Of a stretch of DNA of 64,000 nt, positions 17,939 to 34,651 are shown one piece after another. The stretch comes from an uncultured Bacteroides sp. GTDB taxonomy: Bacteria; Bacteroidota; Bacteroidia; Bacteroidales; Bacteroidaceae. The notes under the pieces are model-generated. The model was not told where the DNA came from. It searched no databases and saw only the letters and a program-made list of their open reading frames with translations. The stretch covers positions 17,513 through 81,512 of the forward strand of contig CAUHML010000010.1 in the NCBI GenBank assembly GCA_959606905.1. The letters run 5' to 3'. A program made the position numbers and the translations under genes. The stretch's first letter is position 1. Each line of letters opens with the position of its first letter.

Positions 17939-18838
17939 TTAGAGGCTCTTGAGCCAAGTAATTGTTTTGTTGATACCGTAATCGAAGCCAGTTGATACAT
18001 AGTTGCCAATTGCTTCAACGAGATCGCTATTATCAAACATCTCTATAGTGTATTTGATGCCGTCATCAGGACGGATGCCAATACCTATCTTATCTGCATA
18101 TCCTGCTAACTCGCCAATGCGAAGAAGATAGCCTTTTAAGATGCGAGGAGAACCTGAACCTATATAATAGAAGGCCTTTTTGGTTTCGTGAGCACCAAGA
18201 CGATAAACAGCCTCAATCAAATCCTCAACATAAATGAAATCATATGGCTGAAGACCAGGGCCAAATGTCGCTTCCTTACCAGCCAACAACTCACCAAGGG
18301 TATAACTGACAAGATTACCAGTCTTATTGCCTACTCCATAGATATTAGAGAATTGCATCCAAACGAATTGCTGACCGATGTTCTTGCAATAATCGTCAAC
18401 CATTAAATGACATGCATGCTTAGCAACACCATACATCATACCACCGCTGGTAGCCTGAAGATTAGGAAGGCTATAGGTAGCATTCTCAGCAACAGTGCCT
18501 GCACACAGATATTTTTTCACAGACAGTTTCTTGCAGATATTTGCACAATCAATAGCCATCTGAATATTGGCAAGCTGAATGGTTGGATCTGCCTTTTCTG
18601 CTCCATTCACACCTCTCCATGCTAGATGATAGAAAGCATCATATTCACCAGCAGGTATCTTATCGGCAAGTGACGCATCAACCGTTGCCTCAATCTTTGT
18701 GATAAGATCAGTTTCTGGCAATCTAGGTGCAGCAAAGCTGATATCAACTGCTACAACCTTTACATTATTTTCAATCAGTTTCTTGATCAGAGAGTTACCG
18801 ATAAAACCGTTAGCACCTGTTACAATTACATTTTTCAT
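17939..18838 (-). CDS. NAD(P)-dependent epimerase/reductase of the CDP-sugar module
   Basis: This 299-residue extended SDR has the Rossmann loop VTGANGFIGNSLI and the catalytic pair in YGVAKHACHL. Its position between the RfbC-like epimerase and CDP-glucose 4,6-dehydratase suggests it reduces the C4 keto group of a CDP-4-keto-6-deoxyhexose, as CDP-paratose and CDP-abequose synthases do on related substrates. This role is inferred from context. Spacing to both neighbours is 12-14 bases. Confidence 0.85.
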   Translation of the reverse strand: MKNVIVTGANGFIGNSLIKKLIENNVKVVAVDISFAAPRLPETDLITKIEATVDASLADKIPAGEYDAFYHLAWRGVNGAEKADPTIQLANIQMAIDCANICKKLSVKKYLCAGTVAENATYSLPNLQATSGGMMYGVAKHACHLMVDDYCKNIGQQFVWMQFSNIYGVGNKTGNLVSYTLGELLAGKEATFGPGLQPYDFIYVEDLIEAVYRLGAHETKKAFYYIGSGSPRILKGYLLRIGELAGYADKIGIGIRPDDGIKYTIEMFDNSDLVEAIGNYVSTGFDYGINKTITWLKSL

Positions 18839-18852
18839 TCTAGTTAAGTTAA

Positions 18853-19920
18853 TTAACGTCCGAGGAATTTATTGATCTGCTTGTCCATGCAAGCACGAAC
18901 ATCGCCACCTGCAAGCCAGCATTTGCTCCATTCTACAATCTTCTCCATGGCTTCATCCAAATTCCAACGTGGGGCCCATCCAAAAGTGGATTTGAGTTTT
19001 GAGCAATCAAGCTTCAAGAAGTTAGCCTCATGAGGACCTCCATCGTACTTATTGATCCACTTCAACCCCTCGCCCCATTTGCTCACAAAAAGATCTACAA
19101 GAGCACCTGTTTGGAAACAATCTACATCATCAGGACCTACATTGTAGTAATCAGCATACTTACTATCCTGATATTGCTTCATGGCAATCAAGAGGTAAGC
19201 ATAAAGTGGTTCGAGAACATGCTGATAAGGACGTGTTGAGAATGGATTGCGAACTACGATATCCTCATGTTTTTCAGCTGCACGTACACTATCAGGGATA
19301 ATACGATCATTAGCAAAATCGCCACCACCGATTACATTACCTGCACGAGCTGTTGAAATAGGGATAATAGGCTGTCCTTCCTTATCTGTAAAGAATGAAT
19401 GCTTATAACTATGAGTTACCAGCTCAGAGCAAGACTTAGAGTTGCTATATGGATCATAGCCATCTAACTCCTCATTTTCACGATAGCCCCAATTCCATTC
19501 TTTATTTAAATAAACTTTATCGGTAGTCACATTAAGGAATGACTTTACGCAATTACTTTGGCGAACACACTCCAAGATATTTACAGTACCAATAACATTG
19601 GTTTCGTATGTATAAGCAGGATCCTTGTAAGAGTCACGAACGATTGGCTGCGCAGCAAGGTGAAGAACGATCTCTGGTTGAGCCTCATTGAATGCAGCCA
19701 TTAATGACTCACGATTGCGAATATCACCAATTACAGAATGAATATCACCTTCGATATTGGCAATCTTAAAAAGTGAAGGTTCTGTAGGGGCATTCAAAGA
19801 ATAGCCAGTTACGATCGCTCCAGCATTGGCAAGCATCTTACACATCCAAGATCCCTTGAAGCCTGTATGACCTGTGAGAAATACACGCTTGTCTTTGTAA
19901 AAATCAAATATATCTTCCAT
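18853..19920 (-). CDS. rfbG: CDP-glucose 4,6-dehydratase
   Basis: This 355-residue SDR converts CDP-glucose to CDP-4-keto-6-deoxyglucose. It has the CDP-glucose dehydratase start FYKDKRVFLTGHTGFKGSWM, LHLAAQPIVRDSY, the TTDKVY motif and YDPYSNSKSCSE with the catalytic Tyr and Lys, then STARAGNVIGGGD. It follows the cytidylyltransferase gene by five bases. No RfbH-type dehydrase lies in the window, so a 3,6-dideoxyhexose is not expected unless it is encoded elsewhere. Confidence 0.93.
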   Translation of the reverse strand: MEDIFDFYKDKRVFLTGHTGFKGSWMCKMLANAGAIVTGYSLNAPTEPSLFKIANIEGDIHSVIGDIRNRESLMAAFNEAQPEIVLHLAAQPIVRDSYKDPAYTYETNVIGTVNILECVRQSNCVKSFLNVTTDKVYLNKEWNWGYRENEELDGYDPYSNSKSCSELVTHSYKHSFFTDKEGQPIIPISTARAGNVIGGGDFANDRIIPDSVRAAEKHEDIVVRNPFSTRPYQHVLEPLYAYLLIAMKQYQDSKYADYYNVGPDDVDCFQTGALVDLFVSKWGEGLKWINKYDGGPHEANFLKLDCSKLKSTFGWAPRWNLDEAMEKIVEWSKCWLAGGDVRACMDKQINKFLGR

Positions 19921-19925
19921 TTTAT

Positions 19926-20738
19926 TTATTTTGCGAAATCAGGAATATTTGGAACTGAGCGTTCCCAACGTTTCCACGGTGCCTTATTTTCAGCTAATAA
20001 TTTTTCTAACATTGCTTTTTCACGTATGTTATCCATACACTGCCAGAAACCCTCATGAATATAAGACATCAACTGACCTTCTTCAGCTAGTTTTGTAAGT
20101 GCAATCTTCTCAAAAACACATGAATCATCAGTAAGATAATCAAAGATTTTAGGTTCAAGAACCATATATCCAGCATTAATAGGTGCACCATCAGAAGCAC
20201 TCTTTTCACGGAATGATTTAACCGCATTATCACCGCCTATATCAAGAACACCTTTATCCTGCGTCATTTTCACTGCAGTAAGAGTTGCTAGTTTTCCATG
20301 TGATTTATGAAAATCAAGAAGTTTATCTATTTCTACGTCACAAACACCATCTCCATAAGTCATAAAGAAAGGTTCATTACCAACATATTCTTGAATACGT
20401 TTGATACGACCTCCAGTCATTGTATTATAACCAGTATCAACGACTGTAACTTTCCATGGTTCCATATTAGTCCTGTGAACAGTCATCTCATTCATACCAT
20501 TACGATAATCGAAAGTAACATCAGAGTTATGAAGAAAATAATTGGCAAACCATTCCTTTGTATATTCCTGTTTATAGCCGGCACAAATAATAAATTCTTT
20601 ATGACCAAAAAAGGCATATTCTTTCATTATATGCCAAAGTATGGGCATTCCACCAATTTCAATCATTGGCTTGGGTTTGAACTGACTTTCCTCACTTATA
20701 CGTGAGCCAAATCCACCAGCAAGAAGAACAACTTTCAT
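19926..20738 (-). CDS. rfbF: Glucose-1-phosphate cytidylyltransferase
   Basis: This 270-residue enzyme makes CDP-glucose from CTP and glucose-1-phosphate, the first step of the CDP-sugar branch. The nucleotide-binding start VVLLAGGFGSRISEES, then FKPKPMIEIGGMPILWHIMK, ICAGYKQEYTKEWFANYF and FMTYGDGVCDV are typical RfbF motifs. It is at the head of a four-gene module with rfbG, a reductase and an epimerase. Confidence 0.95.
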   Translation of the reverse strand: MKVVLLAGGFGSRISEESQFKPKPMIEIGGMPILWHIMKEYAFFGHKEFIICAGYKQEYTKEWFANYFLHNSDVTFDYRNGMNEMTVHRTNMEPWKVTVVDTGYNTMTGGRIKRIQEYVGNEPFFMTYGDGVCDVEIDKLLDFHKSHGKLATLTAVKMTQDKGVLDIGGDNAVKSFREKSASDGAPINAGYMVLEPKIFDYLTDDSCVFEKIALTKLAEEGQLMSYIHEGFWQCMDNIREKAMLEKLLAENKAPWKRWERSVPNIPDFAK

Positions 20739-20747
20739 ATTATGAAA

Positions 20748-21713
20748 TTATTTAATTTTATTAAAAAATTTACGTAGGATGAGATATAATTTAGGATAAT
20801 AACATATTAACCTTGCATCTATTTTTCGTTTAAATGGAAGATTAAGAGAGAATATAATCTTCTTATCTTCTTTTATCTTAGCAATTAATTTATCTCTTTC
20901 TGGCATTCCATTCTGATCACATCTCCATATAGCTGATACTATATAACCATAATATGAAATCATAGCAAGATTTGTAAGTGTAGGCTCTTTTTTTTCCTTT
21001 AAATATGTAATTCGATATTCTAGTTGTTTGCCTTTATAAAGATCTTTAGAATTGAACTTTGTATTAACAATGCTATTAGGATTATCTGTAAGATGATTCA
21101 AAAGTCCCCTTCTTAATAGTCCCACAGATTTGGCTTCATACAAAGCTTTGCAAGTCAACAAATAATCTTCATGAATTTCCCCAACAGGAAAACGATTAGT
21201 TTTCCAAAATTCTTTTTTGAACAATTTAGACCATACTGCGGTTCTTGGAAGCGATTGAACTGTTCTATTTTTAGAATCTAAGTGCCTGATTAAAGCATCT
21301 TTACCAGATAAAACTATAGATGGTTTTTCTATATATTTATTACTAATATTATTAGTAACCAAATTTATTCCGCACTCAACAAGGTCCAATTGTTCCTTTT
21401 CCATAAATGAAAGCATTTCTTCATACATGGTAGGCTCAATCCAATCATCACTATCAACAAAACCAATAAAATCACCAGAAGCAATATCCAACCCAGCATT
21501 TCGGGCAGAACTTAAACCTCCATTAGATTTATGTATTACATGAATTCGTTTATCAATTCTTGAATACTCATCAATAATTTCGCCACATTTATCAGGAGAT
21601 CCATCATCGACTAAAATAATTTCCAAATTTTTATAAGACTGATGAATAATAGAATCAATACATTTATTAATGTAACGTTCAACATTATATATTGGAACAA
21701 TGACACTAATCAT
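20748..21713 (-). CDS. Family 2 glycosyltransferase
   Basis: This 321-residue enzyme has a textbook GT2 domain: ISVIVPIYNVERYINKCID, EIILVDDGSPDKCGEI, NGGLSSARNAGLDIASGD and FVDSDDWIEP with the DxD metal site. The remaining 200 residues are A+T rich and less conserved. It lies between the CDP-sugar module and the wzy-like gene and probably transfers one sugar of the repeat unit. Donor unknown. Confidence 0.92.
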   Translation of the reverse strand: MISVIVPIYNVERYINKCIDSIIHQSYKNLEIILVDDGSPDKCGEIIDEYSRIDKRIHVIHKSNGGLSSARNAGLDIASGDFIGFVDSDDWIEPTMYEEMLSFMEKEQLDLVECGINLVTNNISNKYIEKPSIVLSGKDALIRHLDSKNRTVQSLPRTAVWSKLFKKEFWKTNRFPVGEIHEDYLLTCKALYEAKSVGLLRRGLLNHLTDNPNSIVNTKFNSKDLYKGKQLEYRITYLKEKKEPTLTNLAMISYYGYIVSAIWRCDQNGMPERDKLIAKIKEDKKIIFSLNLPFKRKIDARLICYYPKLYLILRKFFNKIK

Positions 21714-21714
21714 A

Positions 21715-22980
21715 TCACTTAATCAACTGTTTATGAGGTTTATTCGAAAGGAAACAAGCTAAAAAGAAAACAAAGGTATTACCATAATGATAAATGTAAG
21801 GTTCTTTTCCTTCCGCAAAAACAATAGATAGAAAAAGAAACCCCAATAATATACAAATAACTCGATTTTTTATATATCTAACATTTATAAACATAAGTCG
21901 ATATAAATAAAAATAAAAAACAAGAGTTAAGATTAAGCCGTTTCCAAAATATGATTGTAAATAGCCAGTGTCCGACATTGTTGTTAATCCATCAACCGTT
22001 CCACGATAATATGATGTTCCCAATAAAGTATGCAGACAAATAGGAGCTACAGCTTGTTCTCTTAAAGTATGAACTGTATTTTGATTTTCAATTCCAACCT
22101 CTTGAAAGGCTAATATCTTATGAAAATTACCAAACTCTTCAATATCTGAAAAAAACACAGCTGCCAAAGAAAACAAGATAAAAAAACCAACTGTTCCAAT
22201 AATTGCTAAGCTTGATTTTTGGTAGAAACTACCATAAATAAAGACTAAGCCTATAGTCAAGATTAGCAATAGAATTCCCAAAATAAAACCAGTTGAACCC
22301 ACCAATAAAGCAGCAAATAATATTGCAATATATCCAAAAATATAAAATACATTTTTTGAACATCCAATGATCAAAATTGCAGTTGGAACAAGACCCAAAA
22401 AAAGATTTATAGCCAACAGTGACTCTGCGGCGCCTAAACCGTAAGCTCTTGAGCTAGACAAATAACCAAAATTTGCATCAACCATAAAATGGTTATAAAG
22501 AAACACTTTCACTTCAAATGAAAAGAAATCTGCAATGCAAATAACTGATTGAATCACAGTTGCGTAAAACATCGCAAGTAGAAACTGTTTAATATTATTA
22601 AAAAAGAAATAAGAAAAGGTACAAAAAAATGAAGTTAATAACAAAAACAGTAATGTTTTACCCCACATAGGTTGACCACTGCCTGTACCTGAATGTAGTA
22701 AAGTTATCAGAGTTTGCCATAAGAAAACGACAAAACCAATCGAAATTAATTTTTTTGATGTCCTTTTAAAATTAACATCATCAAAGGTCTTTGAATTAAA
22801 ACGCTTTAAAAACCTTGTAATAAATGTAAAACCAGCAATGTAAAAAACTATCTTTCGCGAAGTCAACATGTCAGGCACTCCAAATGGTTGAACTTCATAA
22901 ACGAAGAAAAAAACGAAGAATATCTGCCATATAAGTTTTTTCAAAGGAGCTTTTTGATCATCTAAAAAATATCTATTCAT
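21715..22980 (-). CDS. Wzy-like O-antigen/capsule polymerase
   Basis: This 421-residue protein has about ten hydrophobic segments and a large loop near residues 275-330 (EEFGNFHKILAFQEVG to YYRGTVDGLTTMSDTGY). This topology is typical of Wzy polymerases, which join repeat units in the periplasm. Wzy proteins have little sequence conservation, so the call rests on topology and on its presence in an operon with Wzx and Wzc. It ends one base before the next GT2. Confidence 0.78.
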   Translation of the reverse strand: MNRYFLDDQKAPLKKLIWQIFFVFFFVYEVQPFGVPDMLTSRKIVFYIAGFTFITRFLKRFNSKTFDDVNFKRTSKKLISIGFVVFLWQTLITLLHSGTGSGQPMWGKTLLFLLLTSFFCTFSYFFFNNIKQFLLAMFYATVIQSVICIADFFSFEVKVFLYNHFMVDANFGYLSSSRAYGLGAAESLLAINLFLGLVPTAILIIGCSKNVFYIFGYIAILFAALLVGSTGFILGILLLILTIGLVFIYGSFYQKSSLAIIGTVGFFILFSLAAVFFSDIEEFGNFHKILAFQEVGIENQNTVHTLREQAVAPICLHTLLGTSYYRGTVDGLTTMSDTGYLQSYFGNGLILTLVFYFYLYRLMFINVRYIKNRVICILLGFLFLSIVFAEGKEPYIYHYGNTFVFFLACFLSNKPHKQLIK

Positions 22981-22988
22981 ATATGAAT

Positions 22989-23534
22989 CTATTTGTTTTT
23001 TAATAGTTTTGCAGGTATTCCACCAACAATCTGTGATTTACTAACAGACTTAGTTACAATTGCACCAGGAGCAACAAAAACATCGTCCTCAATTACAATA
23101 TCACCAAAGGCTTTAGCAGATGGACCAAACGAGACACGTTCACCTAATATCGGTTTCTTACTATTATCATCCTTGTTGCCTAACAAAACTCCCGAATTAA
23201 AAGAGCAATAATTTCCTATTTTTCTAGCATTTAGTAAAATCCCACCACCACCAGAAAGGTGACGAATACGTAAGCCATAACCACAAACATTTAATGGAAT
23301 GTCAATGTTTAATTTCAATCCCAAATGTTGTCTCCTAATATTATATAAATGAAATCTTATTTTGTGGTGACAATTATAATGATATTCACAGTATCTCAAA
23401 AGCCTTAAATATTTCAATATATATGCATTTTCAAATCCATAAATAAGATAAGCAATATATTTCCAAAAAGACAAAGAATACTGAGACATGTCTTCTTTTA
23501 AATAAAACCTAAGATCTTCCCTATTTCTTATCAT
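22989..23534 (-). CDS. Left-handed beta-helix (CysE/LacA-like) O-acetyltransferase
   Basis: This 181-residue protein has an N-terminal helical part and a C-terminal hexapeptide-repeat domain. Repeats run through ILLNARKIGNYCSFNSGVL, ILGERVSFGPSAKAFG and IVIEDDVFVAPGAIVT, ending with IVGGIPAKLLK. The family includes serine acetyltransferases, but in a capsule locus it more likely acetylates a sugar. It starts eight bases before the Wzy gene. Confidence 0.83.
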   Translation of the reverse strand: MIRNREDLRFYLKEDMSQYSLSFWKYIAYLIYGFENAYILKYLRLLRYCEYHYNCHHKIRFHLYNIRRQHLGLKLNIDIPLNVCGYGLRIRHLSGGGGILLNARKIGNYCSFNSGVLLGNKDDNSKKPILGERVSFGPSAKAFGDIVIEDDVFVAPGAIVTKSVSKSQIVGGIPAKLLKNK

Positions 23535-23544
23535 AATAAATAAA

Positions 23545-23970
<426 letters not shown>

Positions 23971-23988
23971 ATTTCAAATTATATTTGA

Positions 23989-24079
23989 TCTGGCAGGAAG
24001 TATCGAACTTCGCCTTTCGCCTACCTGTGCTGCCAGAATACCATATGAGTTTATTTGAATGCTAATACATATAAACTCG
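23989..24079 (-). other. Two stem-loops upstream of the galE remnant
   Basis: TCTGGCAGG (23989) pairs with CTGCCAGA (24030-24037), and GAGTTTAT (about 24048) pairs with ATAAACTC (about 24072-24079). They lie between the UDP-glucuronate epimerase stop and the galE remnant, so they are in the capsule transcript. Neither has a strong U-run. Confidence 0.4.
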
Positions 24080-24093
24080 ACAGGTTTATTATA

Positions 24094-25149
24094 TTATCCA
24101 TAGTATTGTTTATACCACTCAGAGAACTTTCGTAAGCCCTCACGCAATGGCGTGTTTGGCTTATATCCGAAATCATCTTCTAGTGGTGTTGTATCTGCAA
24201 ATGTTACAGGAACATCACCTGGTTGCATAGGTACAAGCTCTTTGTGAGCATCGAAATCGTAATCAAATGGCAATACTCCTGCACGAATCAATTCTTCCTG
24301 AAGGATAGTTACGAAATCAAGGAGATTCTCTGGTGAATTGTTACCAATGTTGTAAACCTTATATGGTGGGATTGGTAATCCATCCTCACCATTGGCTTTT
24401 TCTGGTGCATGTTGCATCACACGCAGTACACCTTCTACGATATCATCTACATAGGTGAAGTCGCGCTTGCAGTTGCCATAGTTGAAGATCTGAATAGTTT
24501 TGCCCTCACGCAACTTGTTGGTGAAGCCAAAGTAAGCCATATCTGGACGACCAGCAGGGCCATAAACAGTGAAGAAGCGAAGACCTGTAGATGGAATATT
24601 ATAAAGCTTTGAATAAGCGTGAGCCATCAACTCGTTGCTCTTCTTGGTTGCTGCATAAAGTGAAACAGGATTATCCACCTTGTCCTCTGTAGAGTATGGA
24701 ACTTTCTTATTGCTACCATATACGCTTGACGATGAAGCATAAACCAAGTGATCTACTTCATGATGACGACATGCTTCAAGAATGTTATAAAAACCAATGA
24801 GATTGCTTTGAATATAAGCATCTGGATTAGTAATGCTGTAGCGTACACCAGCCTGTGCGGCAAGGTTAACTACTACTGAAATCCGATTTTTTGTGAATAT
24901 TTTATCGATAACCTCTTTGTTTGCAATAGATTCCTCCACGAATGACCAATTGCCACCAAGAGCCTCTATTCCACGAAGACGCTCTTTCTTAATATTAACA
25001 TCATAATAATCGGTCATGGTATCAAGACCGATTACCTTTATATCTTTATAATCGTTTATAAGACGTTTTGCAAGATTACTACCGATAAATCCAGCAGCAC
25101 CTGTTACCAAAATAGTCTTTCCGTTTAAATCTAAATTAAATTTTACCAT
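24094..25149 (-). CDS. UDP-glucuronate 4-epimerase (NAD-dependent epimerase)
   Basis: This 351-residue extended SDR has the NAD loop ILVTGAAGFIGSNLAKRL, LAAQAGVRYSI, ASSSSVYGSN and the catalytic-type YAATKKSNE. The AQAGVRYS and PAGRPDMA sequences are characteristic of UDP-glucuronate epimerases, which make UDP-galacturonate. Its neighbour at 25633 is the UDP-glucose dehydrogenase that supplies the substrate. A decayed nucleotidyltransferase gene lies directly upstream. Confidence 0.92.
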   Translation of the reverse strand: MVKFNLDLNGKTILVTGAAGFIGSNLAKRLINDYKDIKVIGLDTMTDYYDVNIKKERLRGIEALGGNWSFVEESIANKEVIDKIFTKNRISVVVNLAAQAGVRYSITNPDAYIQSNLIGFYNILEACRHHEVDHLVYASSSSVYGSNKKVPYSTEDKVDNPVSLYAATKKSNELMAHAYSKLYNIPSTGLRFFTVYGPAGRPDMAYFGFTNKLREGKTIQIFNYGNCKRDFTYVDDIVEGVLRVMQHAPEKANGEDGLPIPPYKVYNIGNNSPENLLDFVTILQEELIRAGVLPFDYDFDAHKELVPMQPGDVPVTFADTTPLEDDFGYKPNTPLREGLRKFSEWYKQYYG

Positions 25150-25151
25150 GT

Positions 25152-25603
25152 TTATTTTCCGTATTTTTTTACTGCTTCATAGTAAGTATCGAGAGATCCG
25201 ATGTTGAAACGGCCTGCTGACATTTTCCATGCATGCATTTTAGTATTGTCAACCATGTAATGGGCAAGATTGCCTGGGGCATCCTTTCCACAACCATTAG
25301 CAACTGAATTGCAAACAAGGCCCAATTTTTTTTTAAAATATACATAGAATGGAGGAACAGCCCAATGAGATTTTGGCTCTTGCGGTTTTTCTTACATATT
25401 GAGTACGCGCATGTTGTCATCAACGACAATGACTCCAGTGCGCTGGAGTTTCTCTATAGATGGTTGCTCATGACACATGATGCAGCTGGTATTCTTTGAT
25501 TTTTCTTGTCTCGAATTAGAGATTTTTATTCCTCAACAAATTTTGCACCATCATCAGGGCAAACACGGTAAGGTGAGAATATGTGATATTGGAAATTGGC
25601 CAT
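25152..25603 (-). pseudogene. Remnant of an NDP-sugar pyrophosphorylase-like nucleotidyltransferase
   Basis: The C-terminal half is readable: MCHEQPSIEKLQRTGVIVV, DDNMRVLNM, then an in-frame stop (TAA), EKPQEPKSHWAVPPFYVY, GKDAPGNLAHYMVD and GRFNIGSLDTYYEAVKKYGK, ending at TAA 25152. These are landmarks of the NTP_transferase family. The N-terminal nucleotide-binding half is missing; a short frame from ATG 25603 (MANFQYHIFSPYRVC) of unclear origin occupies its place. The stop precedes the epimerase ATG by two bases, which suggests a former operon member. Confidence 0.75.
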
Positions 25604-25632
25604 GTTAGTTTATAGTTTGTTTTTGGAAATCC

Positions 25633-26979
25633 TTAGTCGCGCTGGAAGATGTCACGTGTGTAAACCTTGTCCTTTACGTCATCCAATGCGGTATCATAGC
25701 GATTAGCAATGATAGCATTGCTGAGTTTCTTGAATTCATCAAGGTTGTTGACAATCTTAGAGCCGAAGAATGTTTCACCATCAGTAAGTGTTGGCTCGTA
25801 GATGATGATGTTGGCACCCTTTGCCTTTACGCGCTTCATGATGCCCTGAATGGCACTCTGGCGGAAGTTGTCAGAATTTGACTTCATAGTAAGGCGGAAT
25901 ACACCGACTGTAACTTCCTTCTCTGAAGATTCATTCCAGTCGCTATTGGCGGTATAGTAACCGGCTTTACGAAGAACTTCATCAGCAATAAAGTCCTTAC
26001 GCGTGCGGTTTGACTCCACGATAGCGCTCATCATGTTTTGAGGAACGTCTGCATAGTTAGCCAACAACTGCTTTGTATCTTTTGGCAAGCAATAGCCACC
26101 ATAACCGAATGAAGGATTATTATAGTGTGTTCCGATACGTGGATCGAGCCCTACACCTGAGATGATTGCCTGAGAATCCAAGCCCTTTACTTCAGCATAA
26201 GTATCCAACTCATTGAAATAAGACACGCGAAGTGCAAGATACGTATTAGCAAATAGCTTAACAGCCTCTGCTTCAGTCATACCCATGATAAGAGTATCAA
26301 TATTTTCCTTAATTGCGCCTTCCTGAAGGAGTGCGGCAAATGTTTTTGCATTTTTCTCAGCGTCAGCATTACTGATTGCCTCAATAGATGCATTTTCCTC
26401 ATCCCACTTCTTATTGCGATCAGCCGGCAATATCTTTGGATAGCCAACGATTATACGAGATGGGTAGAGATTATCGTAAAGTGCCTTGCTCTCGCGAAGG
26501 AACTCTGGAGAGAAAAGCAAATTGAACTTCTTACCCTTGAGTGAAGGATCGGTCAAAAACTTGAGCGCATACTTCACGTAAAGTGAACGGCAATATCCTA
26601 CAGGAATAGTAGATTTGATTACCATCACTGCACCAGGATTCACACTCAAAACGAGGTCGATCACATCCTCGATATGATGTGTATCGAAAAAGTTTTTCTG
26701 TGGGTCATAGTTAGTTGGAGCAGCGATTACTACATAATCTGCATCCTTGTAAGCTGCGGCACCATCGAGAGTTGCTGTGAGGTTAAGATCCTTTTCAGCA
26801 AGATACTTCTCGATATAATCGTCCTGGATTGGAGAAATCTTATTATTCAGTTTTTCCACCTTTTCGGGAATTACATCCACGGTGGTTACATGATGATGTT
26901 GTGATAGCAGCGTCGCTATGCTCAGCCCCACATAGCCCGTACCGGCTACGGCAATCTTAATGTCTTTAAAATCACGCAT
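25633..26979 (-). CDS. ugd: UDP-glucose 6-dehydrogenase
   Basis: This 448-residue enzyme oxidises UDP-glucose twice to UDP-glucuronate using NAD. Motifs are [19 protein letters not shown] (NAD loop), [30 protein letters not shown] and the catalytic cysteine in [13 protein letters not shown]. Family members are usually 390-450 residues. With the epimerase at 24094 it forms the uronic-acid branch of this capsule. It lies 16 bases after the Wzc gene. Confidence 0.95.
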
Positions 26980-26995
26980 ATTTTGTTTGATTTAA

Positions 26996-29410
26996 TTATT
27001 TTTCACCTCCATGCTTCTCTCCATATCCGTAACCGTAACGTTTTCCATAACCATAATATTTGCCATATTTACCATAGCCATAGTAATAACCATACTTCCT
27101 ACTGTTCAGATCCAAACCATTGACAGCAATACAGAGATTAGGCAATTTGTTATTTTCAGCCAATTCATTAATCAAAGTAAACTCTGCCTTATGGGTATAA
27201 TCAGCACGACATACATATACGGATAAATCTGCGACACGTCCTATAAGTAAAGTATCGGTTACCATACCCACCGGCGCTGTATCCAATATCACATAATCAA
27301 AATTCGCCTTCAATGTTTCAATGGCTTTCTCTAACCCTCCACGAGCCAATAATTCTGTTGGATTAGGTGGAACTGTACCACCGGGAAGAATAAACAGATT
27401 CTTGTTTATATCAGAAGGCTGCACAAAATCCATTAAATTCGCAGTTGTGTTTGTCAGATATTGAGTAATACCATGTTCCTTTTTAGGTATATTGAAGACT
27501 TTATTCAACCCCGGTTTACGAATATCCAGTCCTACTATCACCACTTTCTTCCCTAATAAAGAAAGACTAATTGCTAAATTAGCAGATATGAAAGACTTAC
27601 CTTCACCACTGATAGTAGAAGTTACCAGAATTACATTCTTACCATTCTCAAGCATAAACTGGAGATTAGTACGGACATTCCGGAAAGTCTCACTCATCAG
27701 ATTATTCTGATTCTCAAATACCGCTATAGAACCAGTCTTTTCATCTGCTAACGGAATATCACCAACAACAGGAAGTGAAGTCAATTTCTCAACGTCAGCA
27801 CGACCTTCAATCTTGAATTTTGTCAAACCTATCAGATAAATAACTCCTACCGGAAGTCCCACACCTAAGACTAAAGCAGCCAAATAAACTATCGTCTTCT
27901 TGGGAGAAATCGGATTGTCATCTGCTAACGCTTCATCAATAATCTTCGCGTTATTGGCAGTAGCCGCCAAAGTGATGGCATTCTCCTCACGTTTTTGAAG
28001 CAACATCAGATACAAACCCGATTTAATCTCTTGCTGGCGGGCAATGCTTACAAACTGGCGTTCCTGAGTGGGTGCATCATTGATACGGCGGGAATAACGG
28101 CTTGCTTCACGAGCCAGATCTTCTTTGGTAATCTGCAATCCTTTCAATGTAGCATCTAAGGTAGCTTGCACATTGGTTCTCATTGCACGGATACTGGTAT
28201 CCAGATTGATTATGGTCGGATTATTCTCCGTCGAAGTACGCAACAGACGTTTCCTTTCAACCAGCATTTGATTATAACGGTCTATCGCACCGGCTGATGC
28301 TGCATCCTGTAAGCCGATATTACTCGGTAATACTTCATATTCATTACCTTTCATATAGCGTTGCAAGTCCATCACCAGATTTATCTGAGTCTGATTTTCC
28401 ACGCGTTTCTTTTCATATTCAGCATTGCCTGTCAAGGCTATCTGTGCTTCACTGCTCAAATCAGTAATTCCCGCACTACGTTTGAAGTTCTCCAAATCCT
28501 GTTCTGTACTGCCTAATTCTTTAGAAATAATACCAATACGTTCGTCAATAAATTCAGCAGTTTTCTGAGCCACCTCATTCTTGTCATTATTGGCATTGAT
28601 ATTATACATTTCAAGCAGTTTATTGATATAATCTCTACCACGCCGGGTATTTGTATTTTCCAATGAAATAACAACTACAGAAGTAGTCTTTGAAGTGGGG
28701 GCTATTGACAAAGAGTTAACATATTCTTTCAACACAGAAAAAGGTCTGTTAATAAAAGCTGTGATATGACGTTCTTTGGTTATATTTTCCGGACAAACTG
28801 CTGACAAGGTATCGTTATTTGCGAAAAAAGCAACCGTACCCTCATCTGTCGGAAATACAGCAGGCAATTTATCAAACTGTTTCCGGTACTCTTTTTCGCC
28901 TACTGTAATTTGTACCCCCAACGCACCCGTTGGTTGAAGAATCATATTTATTTCCATTCTACCCGGAAGTTTATCCGCTTCCTGATGAGTCAGACTCACT
29001 AAAACAGGAGATGTATGATAAAGCTCTTTGCTTGGAAATTCGTCTTCATCCATATAAGTCACGAACAGTCCCAGATTGTTTACCACCTCTCTGGCCAAAG
29101 ACTTTGAACGAAGTACTTCGATTTCATTATCTACATTGCTAGATGAAGAGACGAAACCCTCCAATCCCATCTTTTCTAAATCGGAAGACATACTTGCACC
29201 ACCACCTTTCTTTTCGTCCTTAATAAGGACAGTGGCAGAAATATTATATATAGGTGTTGTCAGACGTAGGTATCCCCATGCACAAGCAATACAAATAATT
29301 ATCGATACTACAAACCAAGGCCAGTGAATCAGATAACGGAAAAGAAGTTCCTGAATATTAACCTGTTCTTCGGACTGTTCCCCTAATTTATCTTTTCTTT
29401 CATCAATCAT
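26996..29410 (-). CDS. wzc: Wzc-type chain-length regulator / BY-kinase
   Basis: This 804-residue inner-membrane protein controls chain length and export through cycles of tyrosine autophosphorylation. It has an N-terminal Wzz domain with a membrane segment at about 30-50, a long periplasmic coiled region, a second membrane segment near 500-525, and a cytoplasmic kinase with Walker A' STISGEGKSFISANL and VVIVGLDIRKPGL (Walker A), plus VILDTAPVGMVTD (Walker B). The C-terminal 30 residues are a tyrosine cluster (YGYYYGYGKYGKYYGYG). Kinase and Wzz parts are fused, as in proteobacteria. Confidence 0.95.
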   Translation of the reverse strand: MIDERKDKLGEQSEEQVNIQELLFRYLIHWPWFVVSIIICIACAWGYLRLTTPIYNISATVLIKDEKKGGGASMSSDLEKMGLEGFVSSSSNVDNEIEVLRSKSLAREVVNNLGLFVTYMDEDEFPSKELYHTSPVLVSLTHQEADKLPGRMEINMILQPTGALGVQITVGEKEYRKQFDKLPAVFPTDEGTVAFFANNDTLSAVCPENITKERHITAFINRPFSVLKEYVNSLSIAPTSKTTSVVVISLENTNTRRGRDYINKLLEMYNINANNDKNEVAQKTAEFIDERIGIISKELGSTEQDLENFKRSAGITDLSSEAQIALTGNAEYEKKRVENQTQINLVMDLQRYMKGNEYEVLPSNIGLQDAASAGAIDRYNQMLVERKRLLRTSTENNPTIINLDTSIRAMRTNVQATLDATLKGLQITKEDLAREASRYSRRINDAPTQERQFVSIARQQEIKSGLYLMLLQKREENAITLAATANNAKIIDEALADDNPISPKKTIVYLAALVLGVGLPVGVIYLIGLTKFKIEGRADVEKLTSLPVVGDIPLADEKTGSIAVFENQNNLMSETFRNVRTNLQFMLENGKNVILVTSTISGEGKSFISANLAISLSLLGKKVVIVGLDIRKPGLNKVFNIPKKEHGITQYLTNTTANLMDFVQPSDINKNLFILPGGTVPPNPTELLARGGLEKAIETLKANFDYVILDTAPVGMVTDTLLIGRVADLSVYVCRADYTHKAEFTLINELAENNKLPNLCIAVNGLDLNSRKYGYYYGYGKYGKYYGYGKRYGYGYGEKHGGEK

Positions 29411-29419
29411 ACAATGCTA

Positions 29420-30250
29420 TTATCTGAAAATTGTTACTAATAAACTTGCCAATGACACTAAAATAGAAGTAGCGGAGAACCAGAGACTTGTACTGTTACC
29501 AATATCCGAGTTGCGTGCTTTTGCCTTGTTCGGAGTCACATAAACGATATCGTTCTGCTGCAACCAGTAATAGGGAGAAAGAATGGTCTCCGCACTGTTC
29601 AAATCCAGTGTTATAATTTCCTGTTTGCCATCAGCACTTTCACGAATCAGCTTTACATTGTCGCGAACTCCCCAAACCGTCATGTCACCCGCCATAGCAA
29701 GCGCTTCCAACAAATTCACTTTCTCGTTACTGATAGTAAAAGTTCCCGGACGGGCAACCTCACCCAATACGGAGATTTTATAGTTTACCATACGGACAGT
29801 GACTATCGGCGTTTCTTTGATATAAGGTTTCAGTTTCTCCACAATCAGTTGCTCCGCCTCTTTCTTGGTCAAGCCACCTACCCTCAACTCACCTAGTACC
29901 GGAAAATTTATTTTTCCATCGTTATCTACGAGATATTGCTGCAATATCGGTTGGGAGGTTGTACTGGTTATAGCTACATTATTTTGAGTAGCTACCGTGA
30001 GGTTAAACGGAACAGCCAATTCCGGGCTGGTACATGACACTACAATAGTAAGCAGATCTTTAGGCATTATCTTTGCATCATATAGATTTTCCTGTTGAGC
30101 AGTCTGTTCTACAACTTTTGCATCTTGTAAATAAGGAACTTTCTTATACGACTGGCAGGAAGCGAACAGCAATATCGCAACTAAACAGGGAAATACCCCC
30201 CTCCCCTTTCTACTTACTCTACTTGCACAAATACAAAACAAATTATACAT
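29420..30250 (-). CDS. wza: Wza-type polysaccharide export lipoprotein
   Basis: This outer-membrane auxiliary protein forms the capsule export pore. Read from ATG 30250 it has 276 residues; an in-frame TTG at 30322 would overlap the upstream dehydratase and is less likely. The lipobox is AILLFASC (Cys about 32). The poly_export domain follows (PKDLLTIVVSC, INFPVLGELRVGGLTKKEAEQL) and then the SLBB domain (ISVLGEVARPGTFTI). A C-terminal hydrophobic segment (LWFSATSILVSLASLLV) is typical of Bacteroides versions. It lies 9 bases before wzc. Confidence 0.93.
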   Translation of the reverse strand: MYNLFCICASRVSRKGRGVFPCLVAILLFASCQSYKKVPYLQDAKVVEQTAQQENLYDAKIMPKDLLTIVVSCTSPELAVPFNLTVATQNNVAITSTTSQPILQQYLVDNDGKINFPVLGELRVGGLTKKEAEQLIVEKLKPYIKETPIVTVRMVNYKISVLGEVARPGTFTISNEKVNLLEALAMAGDMTVWGVRDNVKLIRESADGKQEIITLDLNSAETILSPYYWLQQNDIVYVTPNKAKARNSDIGNSTSLWFSATSILVSLASLLVTIFR

Positions 30251-30266
30251 AAATTTCTCAAGTTTA

Positions 30267-32192
30267 TTATTCTTTATCCAGTACCTCAAATTTCGAATTC
30301 TTCGATTTGAACTCCGGAACAACTTTTTTCATCAATCTGACCGTGTCTATAATCCGCACAGCACGGGACAACTTCTCAAACTCCGCATATATATCAAGAA
30401 TATCAGCATATTCATACCGACGTACTTTAGCTATCATAATTTTTTTATTCTCGGTAGGAATCGTATTTTCTTTATCACTCAGCACTTCTTCATAGAGTTT
30501 CTCACCCGGTCGCAAGCCAGTAAATTCAATCTTTATATCTTCATCCGGGCGATAACCCGCCAATTCAATCATACGGGTAGCCAAGTCGACAATCTTAACG
30601 GCCTTGCCCATTTCAAAGACAAAGATTTCATTACCCTCTCCCATTGTAACAGCCTCCATAACCAAACGACAAGCTTCGGGAATCGTCATAAAAAAACGAA
30701 TAATATCAGGGTGAGTCACTGTGACAGGACCACCGTTCTCAATCTGTTCCTTGAAGCGCGGGATTACAGAACCGTTACTGCCTAATACGTTTCCAAAACG
30801 TGTAGTAATGAATTTAGTATGTCCTTTTATCTTTCCCTCACGGATAGCACACCCCAAGCTCTGTACATAGATTTCCGCCAAACGTTTGGAACATCCCATC
30901 ACATTAGTCGGGTTCACAGCTTTGTCGGTAGAAACCATTATCATTTTTTCTGCACCATACTCCACCGCCATATCGGCGACCTGACGCGAACCCGTGACAT
31001 TGACAAGTACAGCTTCGCAAGGATTTTCTTCCATTAAAGGAACATGTTTATAAGCAGCGGCGTGGAAGACAATTTGAGGATGATAAAGTTCGAATACCAT
31101 ACGCACACGTTCTTTCACACGTACATCACCAATCACCGGAACAAAATCGATAGCAGGATAATTTTTCTCAAATTCCAAACGGACATTATGCAAAGGAGTC
31201 TCTGCAGAGTCAAACATGATGAGTTTTTGAATACCCATTTGCACCAATTGACGGCAAAGCTCGCTACCGATACTACCTGCAGCACCGGTCACTAATACAA
31301 CTTTTCCTCTGAATTCTTCTGCGACCTGACTAAGGTTTATATTGATTTCAGCACGTCCCAATAAATCTTCAATTTTAATAGGACGTATCCACTGATGAAA
31401 GTTCCCGTCAGAATCCGCTTCACTGATAGTAGGAGCAATAAAAGTCTTGACAGCATTACTTTTACAATACTCTAAAAGGCGGTTCTCCTCCAGACGGGTA
31501 TCTTCATAACAGGAAAACAGAATACCATGAATACCATGTTTTTTTATGACACGATTAAAGTCTTCTTCTGTTTCAAAATAATAGATAGGAAGGTCTGTCA
31601 GACGACGTCTACTGTTGTTTTTACCGTAAGTGTAGAAACCTGCAACTTTATAATGTGCACTGTCGCGGAGACGGAATTTTAAGGCCACACTCTTTTCGTC
31701 AATACCATAAATAAGAATGCGGGTATTCTTCTTATTCACCCAATCCAGCAACAGGTCATAGACAATTATCAGTGATACACGGAAGGCTGTCAGTGTCGCC
31801 AAAGTCAATAAACCATCAAACAAGAGATAAGATATCCTATAATTATCCGGCAATTCAGTCTCATAAATAACCCAATAAGAAATAGCCACCAGACAGGCTA
31901 CCTTGAATAGGACGGCACACATGACACGCCAAAGTTCACGTGCCTGTGAAAAACGAATTGTATTACGATAAGTGTGGAATATTAATGCCCCTGCAACACT
32001 TGACACTAAAGAGACGCAAATAAATTTGCAAAGCATCCAGTCACTTATCGGAACATGTGCCATATAGTGAATTACGGCATAAGCGACCAATGAACATAAA
32101 ACAGACAGTGCCGTATCAATACCTAAAATAACCCAATAGCTGAAATAGTTTTTACGAGCATATTGTACTATGCCCTTCAATGTTTTTTCCAT
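30267..32192 (-). CDS. CapD/WbpM-type nucleoside-diphosphate-sugar 4,6-dehydratase
   Basis: This 641-residue membrane-anchored dehydratase acts on a UDP-HexNAc, probably UDP-GlcNAc, giving a 4-keto-6-deoxy sugar. Four N-terminal membrane helices (about 1-130) precede a CoA-binding-like region and the SDR domain with VVLVTGAAGSIGSELCRQL, FHAAAYKHVPLMEENP, STDKAVNPTNVMGCSKR and FGNVLGSNGSVIP. It is the second CPS gene. It probably supplies the DegT aminotransferase at the other end of the operon. Similar proteins are PglF and WbpM. Confidence 0.92.
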   Translation of the reverse strand: MEKTLKGIVQYARKNYFSYWVILGIDTALSVLCSLVAYAVIHYMAHVPISDWMLCKFICVSLVSSVAGALIFHTYRNTIRFSQARELWRVMCAVLFKVACLVAISYWVIYETELPDNYRISYLLFDGLLTLATLTAFRVSLIIVYDLLLDWVNKKNTRILIYGIDEKSVALKFRLRDSAHYKVAGFYTYGKNNSRRRLTDLPIYYFETEEDFNRVIKKHGIHGILFSCYEDTRLEENRLLEYCKSNAVKTFIAPTISEADSDGNFHQWIRPIKIEDLLGRAEININLSQVAEEFRGKVVLVTGAAGSIGSELCRQLVQMGIQKLIMFDSAETPLHNVRLEFEKNYPAIDFVPVIGDVRVKERVRMVFELYHPQIVFHAAAYKHVPLMEENPCEAVLVNVTGSRQVADMAVEYGAEKMIMVSTDKAVNPTNVMGCSKRLAEIYVQSLGCAIREGKIKGHTKFITTRFGNVLGSNGSVIPRFKEQIENGGPVTVTHPDIIRFFMTIPEACRLVMEAVTMGEGNEIFVFEMGKAVKIVDLATRMIELAGYRPDEDIKIEFTGLRPGEKLYEEVLSDKENTIPTENKKIMIAKVRRYEYADILDIYAEFEKLSRAVRIIDTVRLMKKVVPEFKSKNSKFEVLDKE

Positions 32193-32239
32193 TGTAGTAT
32201 AAATGAATAAAATAATGTATCAGAAATACAAGTACATAT

Positions 32240-32812
32240 TCAAAATCTAACCGGTTCTACATACCCTACCGGCATATCAGCACAAGCACATCCTAACATA
32301 TTAAGCCTAACAGCTATCTTGCTTTTGCCGTCTACTGTAACAAGTTCACCCACAAGTCCGGTTAAAGGACCTTTAATGACGCGAACTTTTTCACCACGTG
32401 CCAAGGGAGCACTGTTCATGGAAATGACATCTTTTGAATAATCAAGCATAAATCGGAAACGAGCCATCTGCTCATCAGGAATGATAGTCGGACTGCTCTC
32501 ACCTCGCATTACCATATACCGACTTACTGTAGAAAAGGAAAGAACTTCTTTACGTTCTTTTGCATCAACGTGTACGAATACCATCATTGGAAGCAATACA
32601 GACTCGACCATCTTGCGTCGGTCACTCCATTGATGAAGTTCCTGCTGAACCGGAACGAAATTCTCAATCCCCATTTTATTTAAACGCTCGGCTACTTTCT
32701 TCTCGTGATGCATGCGAACCAAAGCGACATACCAACGTTTTGAGTATGCTACGCCTTCCCCTGTCCCATTACTAGGCCCAGCATTTGCTGATTTTTGTTT
32801 CGTTAAAATCAT
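32240..32812 (-). CDS. UpxY-family capsule transcription antiterminator
   Basis: UpxY proteins are NusG paralogues that bind RNA polymerase at their own capsule operon and let it read through the leader. This 190-residue protein has the NGN domain from RWYVALVRMHHEKKVAERL to SRYMVMRGE and a KOW motif in GEKVRVIKGPLTGLVGELV. It is the first CPS gene, 18 bases from the left repeat of the invertible promoter. The usual second gene, upxZ (an inhibitor of other UpxYs), is missing. Confidence 0.92.
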   Translation of the reverse strand: MILTKQKSANAGPSNGTGEGVAYSKRWYVALVRMHHEKKVAERLNKMGIENFVPVQQELHQWSDRRKMVESVLLPMMVFVHVDAKERKEVLSFSTVSRYMVMRGESSPTIIPDEQMARFRFMLDYSKDVISMNSAPLARGEKVRVIKGPLTGLVGELVTVDGKSKIAVRLNMLGCACADMPVGYVEPVRF

Positions 32813-32961
32813 ATTTTTTTACCCCATGTATATCTGTTACTTCTTAGGTAACAGGCAGTATATACACAAGACACACACAACAATGAAAAAGGGAAATTAC
32901 ACTGATATACAGGGTGTAAAAGAAGGGGGCCTGATATTCAACGAGAAGATTTCTTGATTTC

Positions 32962-33022
32962 GGGCAATAAAAAATCATTGAGCATGAAAAAAGAGATTTC
33001 ATGTTCAAATACTTTTTTGCCC
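32962..33022. terminator. Nested hairpin inside the invertible segment
   Basis: GGGC (32962-32965) plus an A-run pairs with TTTTTTGCCC, and within it CATGAAA pairs with TTTCATG. Both strands have T-rich stretches after the inner stem, so it may terminate in either direction. It always lies upstream of the promoter within the segment, so it could shield the operon from readthrough. Confidence 0.45.
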
Positions 33023-33058
33023 TATGTTTCAGATAAAACGAAAAAAAATGGGAAAATA

Positions 33059-33091
33059 TTTGTTTACTATCTTAAAATATGTCTATCTTTG
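33059..33091 (+). promoter_or_regulatory. Phase-variable CPS promoter, OFF orientation
   Basis: TTTG (33059-33062), a 21-base spacer and TATCTTTG (33084-33091) match the Bacteroides consensus. The start point would be about 33098, just before the right repeat. It reads rightwards, into the recombinase gene from its 3' side. Only after inversion would it read into upxY. Confidence 0.85.
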
Positions 33092-33164
33092 CGTCAAATT
33101 TAATTCTGTTACCTAAGAAGTAACAGATACACTTTAATTCTGATTATTAACTCATTACATCTTT

Positions 33165-34118
33165 TTATTTACCTACATAACAATTCTTTATGTAAGATAA
33201 ATTCCCTTTATTTACCTCTGTACGTTCTTTAAGCTCGAAGCCTTTCAGGTAGATTTGTGTGGTTTTTATAGATTTGTGTCCCAATGATTCACTAATCATT
33301 TCAATCGGCACTCCGCGATATTTGGCTGTCGTTGCCCAAGAATGACGGAGCGTGTAGGAAGTGACAGGAGAATTCAAACGGAGAGCCCGAGCCAGATCCT
33401 TCAAACAATTATTAAATCGACGAAGAGCACTCTGGTATTCACGGTAAGCTCCTTCATCCTTACGTTTCTTATCACCGGACAGGATATCAAACAGATAGTC
33501 CGGACAATCAGGGCGGGAAGGCTGACTGTTGCGAAGCCGGTGAATCATCTCCTTCGCGGTATCCAGCACTTCCACACTGATCGGAGTTTTCGTCTTGACA
33601 CGGTTGTACCGCAACACGTTCCGGTCCAAAGCTGACTTTTCCAGATGTGCCAAGTCGGCAAACGACATTCCGCAAAACTGGAACATCAGAGCGGCAATAG
33701 CCTGTGTATGGCGTAAACGTTCCGATTGGGGATCTTCATAAAGCAGCTTCCGCAACTCGGTGACAGGAAGGGCTTTCTTCTGACGAACATCCACACCCGT
33801 ATAGACATCGTGAAACAGGCGGGGGATGTAAGGAGCACTACCCGCTTCCACTCCCCGGTTGTAGATACTGCGAAGCATACGCATATACGTGGAAACGGTG
33901 TTGGGCTTCAACCCACATTCATAAAGATACTGTCCGTAACGTCGTAAACGTTCCCGGGTTACTTGCCTGAACGACACATTGAACGTGCCGCAGAACAGGC
34001 TGAAAGAAAGGAGGGCATTTTTGTAGACATGCGCCGTAGAATAACGCCCTTCCTTTCGCAAACGACCGATGTAGATCTCTCCACACCGGCTAAATCCATT
34101 TTTACTCATCATTTGCAT
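33165..34118 (-). CDS. Tyrosine site-specific recombinase (capsule promoter invertase)
   Basis: This roughly 317-residue protein has the SAM-like core-binding domain (about 1-110) and a C-terminal catalytic domain. Visible catalytic residues are the second Arg in SYTLRHSWATT, His in ESLGHKSIKTTQ and the nucleophile Tyr in TQIYLKGF; the beta-hairpin Lys is in RVKTKT. At the first-Arg position (RGM in many relatives) it reads FQFCGMSFADL. ATG 34118 is preferred; a GTG at 34121 is in frame. Adjacency to the inverted repeats makes it the likely invertase of this promoter. Confidence 0.88.
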   Translation of the reverse strand: MQMMSKNGFSRCGEIYIGRLRKEGRYSTAHVYKNALLSFSLFCGTFNVSFRQVTRERLRRYGQYLYECGLKPNTVSTYMRMLRSIYNRGVEAGSAPYIPRLFHDVYTGVDVRQKKALPVTELRKLLYEDPQSERLRHTQAIAALMFQFCGMSFADLAHLEKSALDRNVLRYNRVKTKTPISVEVLDTAKEMIHRLRNSQPSRPDCPDYLFDILSGDKKRKDEGAYREYQSALRRFNNCLKDLARALRLNSPVTSYTLRHSWATTAKYRGVPIEMISESLGHKSIKTTQIYLKGFELKERTEVNKGNLSYIKNCYVGK

Positions 34119-34144
34119 CACTAGTTATTTTATAATATATACCA

Positions 34145-34200
34145 TTTGGCATGCAGCAAAAAAACAAATCTTTTTGCAGGTTCGTTGCACGCTTGCCAAA
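34145..34200. other. Nested inverted repeats between divergent genes
   Basis: TTTGGCA (34145-34151) pairs with TGCCAAA (34194-34200), and inside it GCAAAAA (34156-34162) pairs with TTTTTGC (34171-34177). It lies between the leftward recombinase and a rightward small gene. It may be an operator or an RNA hairpin. Confidence 0.4.
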
Positions 34201-34249
34201 GTATAATTTATTATTTAATTTATTTAACCATTGCAAAAATTAGCAAACT

Positions 34250-34651
34250 ATGGCAAAGAAAAAAACAAATCAACAAGAGAAAAAAGTACAAGTAAAAAAG
34301 AAGGTCCAAAAACGGAAAAAGAACACTAGAAGACATGTGAAAGGGGAAATCATCAGTTGGGAGGAACTCGAAAACAGGACAGGATTAACCGGAGATGAAA
34401 CGGAACTTCTCACTGTTTATTTGCACAAATTCGAAAGAGGGGAAGTACACGTCAGATGCTCTAAAAAACTAAAAGACTTAGCTGAATATATCTACGAAAC
34501 GGAGAGCTTATATATAGCTAAACATGGCGGGTTTAAATTGTTAGAAATTAGCAGTATAGAAACAAAGTTATGTAACATCAGGCAAGAGGAACGAGAACGA
34601 AAAGAAGAGGACGAAAAACAAGTAAAAAAGAGAGTAGAGAATAAGCGTTGA
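34250..34651 (+). CDS. Small basic/coiled protein of unknown function
   Basis: This 133-residue protein starts MAKKKTNQQEKKVQVKKKV, so the first 28 residues are mostly Lys, Arg, Gln and Thr and could bind nucleic acid. The middle (SWEELENRTGLTGDETELL and ADLAEYIYETES-like helices) looks helical, and the end (RQEERERKEEDEKQVKKRV) is a charged coil. No known family was recognised. It starts a rightward trio with an SH3-barrel and a DUF4373 gene, divergent from the recombinase. Confidence 0.65.
   Translation: MAKKKTNQQEKKVQVKKKVQKRKKNTRRHVKGEIISWEELENRTGLTGDETELLTVYLHKFERGEVHVRCSKKLKDLAEYIYETESLYIAKHGGFKLLEISSIETKLCNIRQEERERKEEDEKQVKKRVENKR

Follow-up and report, generated by a model that had tools for sequence, protein, structure and literature searches.

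The window, by which we mean the whole stretch of 64,000 nucleotides analysed here, carries a short segment enclosed by inverted repeats, located between upxY and a tyrosine recombinase gene. The repeats are 24 bp long (32831–32854 on the left and 33106–33129 on the right, neither assigned a strand), match each other perfectly and enclose 251 bp, all as the preliminary description had reported. Each arm is an imperfect palindrome, in which two 5-bp half-sites flank a 7-nt spacer, GTTAC-TTCTTAG-GTAAC (32836–32852 and 33108–33124). We take two half-sites around a spacer to be the shape of a tyrosine-recombinase site, and paired inverted repeats with a GTTAC-N7-GTAAC core are a feature of invertons. 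When the window was resampled 30 times with a first-order Markov model, perfect inverted repeats separated by 100–700 bp reached 16 bp at most. Each arm could form a hairpin in the leader RNA, and the repeats might then be palindromic by chance or for structural reasons alone, with no part in inversion. This explanation meets a repeat well above the resampled maximum, a core that is conserved across loci and an orthologous pair of loci inverted between the repeats (L020/L022, described below), and we give it practically no credence.

On the left of the segment, upxY (32240–32812, minus strand) encodes a NusG-family antiterminator (NF033644, 177 bits, cut-off 100) and is the first gene of a capsule operon. 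The capsule biosynthesis genes extend over 4722–32192 on the minus strand, where strand and spacing suggest co-transcription. They include genes for a 4,6-dehydratase, Poly_export, a Wzz/tyrosine kinase, sugar-nucleotide enzymes, glycosyltransferases, a flippase and an initiating sugar transferase. Together with the NF033644 match, these capsule gene matches uphold the earlier account of a 28-kb operon, led by upxY, beside the segment. As in other capsule invertons, upxY and the operon would lie downstream of the promoter in the ON state. The place of the second gene, 47 nt after upxY, is taken by a 641-aa dehydratase frame, and none of the operon frames scanned matched the UpxZ family; upxZ is often, not always, present as the second gene of upxY/upxZ capsule loci. 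A UpxZ search of the nearest genome, G001, gave no match in the control genomes. A galE fragment of 121 aa (23586–23951, minus strand) matches only positions ~152–254 of full-length galE models and seems to be a remnant lying within the operon.

A gap of 18 nt separates the upxY ATG from the outer edge of the left repeat. Between them we notice the motif GGGGTAA (32819–32825, minus strand), which is conserved at upxY-linked switches and occurs between repeat and upxY start in all 24 of the upxY-linked loci, L020 counted. Its context reads ATGGGGTAA, a start-stop mini-frame, in 46 of 53 sites found by a pattern search of the genus (below). The motif could be a ribosome signal or a leader signal related to UpxY. 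UpxY proteins prevent termination in the leader, according to the accessible text of one report (PMC7819879).

On the right, a tyrosine recombinase gene adjoins the segment, as is typical of invertons. This gene (33165–34121, minus strand) encodes a site-specific recombinase of 318 aa (PF00589, 54 bits; PF13102, 62 bits) in a full-length open frame, and 35 nt separate its stop codon from the right repeat. The recombinase alignment has 39 rows, two of which are gapped at the positions of the first catalytic Arg and the HxxR motif. R259 and H282 are conserved in 37 of the 37 recombinases with a letter there, and Y291 in 36 of 36. At the presumed position of the first catalytic Arg, 30 of 37 sequences, including that of the window, have Ser, six have Pro and one has Ala, and the His of HxxR is replaced by Tyr in all 37. 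A similar Arg-to-Ser change occurs in the CTnDOT integrase.

Inside the segment and near the right repeat, the plus strand contains a putative Bacteroidota -33/-7 promoter, TTTG-N21-TATCTTTG (33059–33091), a further feature of invertons, identified by sequence match. Its TTTG box is at 33059–33062 and, after 21 nt, TATCTTTG follows at 33084–33091, beginning 24 nt from the repeat core. Upstream of the -33 box, a conserved A-tract (33041–33048, plus strand) resembles an UP element by its position and may act as one. The match confirms the preliminary description on the promoter itself and on its direction, away from upxY. That description had also stated that the inverted promoter would face upxY from 25–50 bases away; the direction holds, but the distance does not, as 56 nt would separate the end of the -7 box from the ATG. 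In the present orientation, the minus strand toward upxY has a -7-like box, TAAATTTG, at 33095–33102, with no -33 TTTG found at 17–23 nt from it. The same strand of the segment yields one E. coli-type sigma-70 match (9/12), where 2.4 are expected by chance. Together, this box and the single sigma-70 match leave room for a weak promoter toward upxY in the present orientation.

With the recombinase as query we fetched 37 loci, in which the presence of a recombinase is by selection. Two were set aside: L028, truncated at the end of a contig, and L046, a Parabacteroides locus with a diverged GCTAC core. The remaining 35 share the layout, each with a complete repeat pair, and in 34 of them a -7-type box begins 24 nt from the core, L045 having a variant box. 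An upxY match lies downstream in 23 of the 35; L020 ends at the upxY start, and 11 have none. Aligning each locus to the inner segment of the window assigned 33 to the OFF orientation and two, L020 and L033, to ON. L020 is orthologous to L022: the recombinase-side flanks (900 bp) are 93% identical, and on the upxY side the 32 nt that L020 covers are identical, while the inner segment scores 239 inverted versus 5 direct. The comparison of this pair, from other genomes, shows that the layout does invert, because the flanks are near-identical while the segment is reversed.

Our findings support the earlier proposal of an invertible capsule promoter, which is consistent with the orientation, the adjacent recombinase, the upxY-first operon, the conserved core and the inverted orthologous locus. 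We hold with high confidence that the segment carries the phase-variable promoter of a capsule locus in Bacteroides, inverted by recombinase action, and that the operon is off in the present orientation. The neighbouring tyrosine recombinase would recombine the two GTTAC-N7-GTAAC sites and thereby invert ~290 bp. In the ON orientation, the promoter, if active as predicted, would drive upxY and the capsule operon. In the present orientation it faces the recombinase 3' end, away from upxY, and the operon is presumably silent.

With 96% of sampled words shared with the sequence of the window, G001 is the nearest genome; it matches window positions 18498–34526 at 99.96% (19 kb of G001 compared). 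For B. caccae ATCC 43185, the accessible part of one report lists an inverton at 1936309–1936332/1936691–1936714 (PMC11892184), and G001 has an inverted repeat at these coordinates, within one base. G001 is probably Bacteroides caccae ATCC 43185 because of this coincidence, and the window appears to be from another B. caccae. Inversions in B. caccae have been reported (PMC5903667, PMC11892184); the accessible text of these papers does not name the locus of the window. The DNA upstream of the recombinase evidently differs between the two strains, because the G001 match stops at window position 34526; beyond that point, 3 kb of G001 match nothing in the window at E 1e-30.

The switch of G001 has the same OFF orientation, with six substitutions in 3126 bp, one of which falls in the right repeat (window position 33124) and makes the G001 arms imperfect. 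The search for an ON copy in the same species drew on one genome per species, and the nearest is OFF. It is conceivable that the element is a fossil, locked OFF through decay of the recombinase or of a site, as both sequences of the species are OFF and one arm of the nearest genome is substituted. In the window, however, both arms are perfect and the full-length recombinase keeps its R259, H282 and Y291, which makes a fossil very improbable.

A pattern search of G001 that is independent of the recombinase found seven repeat pairs with both arms and, of the present locus, a single arm; these were counted with a pattern other than GTTACYTWNWARGTAAC, which misses the main spacer. A recombinase match lies beside all eight pairs, that is, the seven complete ones and the locus itself. 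Strand exchange requires the same spacer in both arms. In every G001 pair the two arms have the same spacer, which differs between pairs, and the substitution in the locus lies outside the spacer. For the loci of other species, equal spacers are partly by construction, since the two arms had to agree in at least 16 of 17 bases. We found six kinds of spacer in G001: TTCTTAG three times (the locus itself, 2580998 and 1250941), and TTTAAAG, TTCTTAA, TTCGTAG, TTTGTAG and TTCATAG once each. The recombinases beside the three TTCTTAG pairs are related (100, 86 and 70% identity), and a working switch might be inverted mainly in trans, by the recombinase of another locus that has this core. Each of the eight pairs nevertheless adjoins a recombinase of its own, which suggests pairing in cis, and we regard inversion mainly in trans as unlikely. 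The 35 fetched loci carry no weight on this point because the recombinase was the query. We prefer inversion by the neighbouring recombinase.

Three of the G001 pairs, at 4020401, 3833328 and 4162328, have variant spacers and more distant recombinases (39–41% identity), and no upxY match lies in the stretches fetched. At G001 2580998–2584815 (L003/L118), the same core and promoter precede a gene set without upxY (frames of 273, 407 and 477 aa). A scan of viral contigs for the upxY-side repeat of the window together with its flank found no copy. The bare 17-base core has a single match in each of 39 viral contigs; these look like chance matches, the second exact arm being absent.

The promoter direction and the layout bear out the OFF orientation given in the preliminary description. 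Its conclusion that the strain has this capsule switched off goes too far, because assemblies generally display whichever orientation predominates in the DNA that was sequenced. A search of 158 genomes from the genus for the upxY-side repeat with GGGGTAA found 53 sites, distributed over 19 genomes. The ON pattern fits eight of them, and L108 is OFF on inspection, leaving 7 of 53 ON; the other 45 were classed by pattern alone, which a variant -7 box would escape. These sites overlap the 35 loci; L106 and L109 seem to correspond to L033 and L020. The seven ON sites lie in seven different genomes. We considered a rule of at most one ON capsule per genome and rejected it, since by a hand estimate random placement gives this result about one third of the time. 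In B. fragilis, the large-capsule promoter is OFF in all three genomes compared, according to the accessible text (PMC3090145). OFF is thus the norm in assemblies, and an OFF orientation therefore says little about the strain of the window.

The inner part of the segment contains a conserved hairpin with a T-run, a terminator-like element on the promoter strand (32978–33018, plus strand). A 12-pair stem (hairpin 32978–33008) is followed by six T at 33013–33018, and folding of 32955–33040 gives z -4.0 on the plus strand and -4.8 on the minus strand. The hairpin is present in all 39 segments examined, of which 35 are from the loci, one from the window and three from G001. Thirty of these were aligned; the other nine, six of them short (L026, L027, L030, L034, L035, L038) and the rest L042, L043 and L047, contain the hairpin too. 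Among the aligned hairpins, whose sequences are related, the ten stem pairs hold in 93.0% of 300 cells, a value reached by none of 500 shuffles, versus 23–51% of cells paired in slid versions of the stem. Nine cells changed on both sides with the pair kept, again reached in 0 of 500 shuffles. The number of pairs with two-sided change (4; reached by 78 of 500 shuffles) and that of further pair types (11; 77 of 500) are not significant. The hairpin of L045 has a different sequence.

In the 30 aligned segments, at least six T within the eight bases after the stem occur on the promoter strand in 28, versus 14 on the other strand. In the window, T-runs flank the hairpin on either side. We rejected a generally bidirectional hairpin, as the T-run polarity goes with the promoter; the element therefore reads in the promoter direction. 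Only when the switch is ON does the recombinase gene read the same way. The literature searched yielded no description of an inner hairpin of the segment.

Because the hairpin is in sense only in ON and the OFF promoter points antisense, the level of the recombinase might depend on orientation. In ON, the hairpin and T-run would follow the recombinase gene in sense, giving a properly ended message. In OFF, the promoter would transcribe antisense into the recombinase 3' end just beyond the repeat, and the scan found no terminator-like site on the promoter strand between the two. On this tentative and rather doubtful proposal, the switch would feed back on its own recombinase, whose level would be high when ON but low when OFF, and would thereby tend toward OFF. 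The literature search, which largely left aside subscription papers, found no orientation feedback, terminators or antisense described at Bacteroides switches. A related case is the flagellar switch of C. difficile, for which the accessible text describes Rho termination in the leader in OFF (PMC7446863). The conserved hairpin and the constant arrangement of promoter and recombinase offer a simple test of why the switches sit mostly OFF. Capsule choice sets the phage and host interactions of gut Bacteroides, and the present locus adds an annotated switch in an apparent B. caccae.

The kind of switch is already known in Bacteroides, and by analogy this one probably works as other Bacteroides capsule invertons do. 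As far as the accessible text of one report goes, long reads revealed a 290-bp inversion with the same core at CPS1 of B. xylanisolvens, and the core is also reported for CPS1/3/5/6 of B. thetaiotaomicron (PMC12118408). The window shares with these switches the GTTAC-TTCTTAG-GTAAC core, an adjacent tyrosine recombinase or integrase and a downstream capsule operon, and with B. xylanisolvens CPS1 a segment of ~290 bp; the outer repeat letters and the polysaccharide genes differ (PMC12118408). A further difference is that the scanned frames of the window operon gave no UpxZ match.

The fimS/fimE system of E. coli shows orientational control of a recombinase. As there, the recombinase gene of the window points toward an invertible promoter, and the direction of that promoter could influence the recombinase message; the likeness is one of description, not of sequence, and feedback in the present switch is hypothetical. 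Mpi of B. fragilis is a serine enzyme, encoded elsewhere than its promoters. A switch of the Mpi type, inverted by that enzyme at repeats of its own, seems less likely here, as the neighbouring recombinase is of the tyrosine family and the core is one reported beside tyrosine-type invertases. According to the accessible text on B. fragilis, the PSA-type promoters resemble the window in having an invertible promoter before a capsule operon with upxY, but one global invertase, Mpi, serves seven invertible promoters there, whereas the window has a tyrosine recombinase beside its switch (PMC12632263). The large-capsule promoter of B. fragilis, inverted by Tsr19, is a different locus; by its description in the accessible text, it is likewise an invertible polysaccharide promoter driven by a tyrosine recombinase and OFF in the three genomes compared (PMC3090145).
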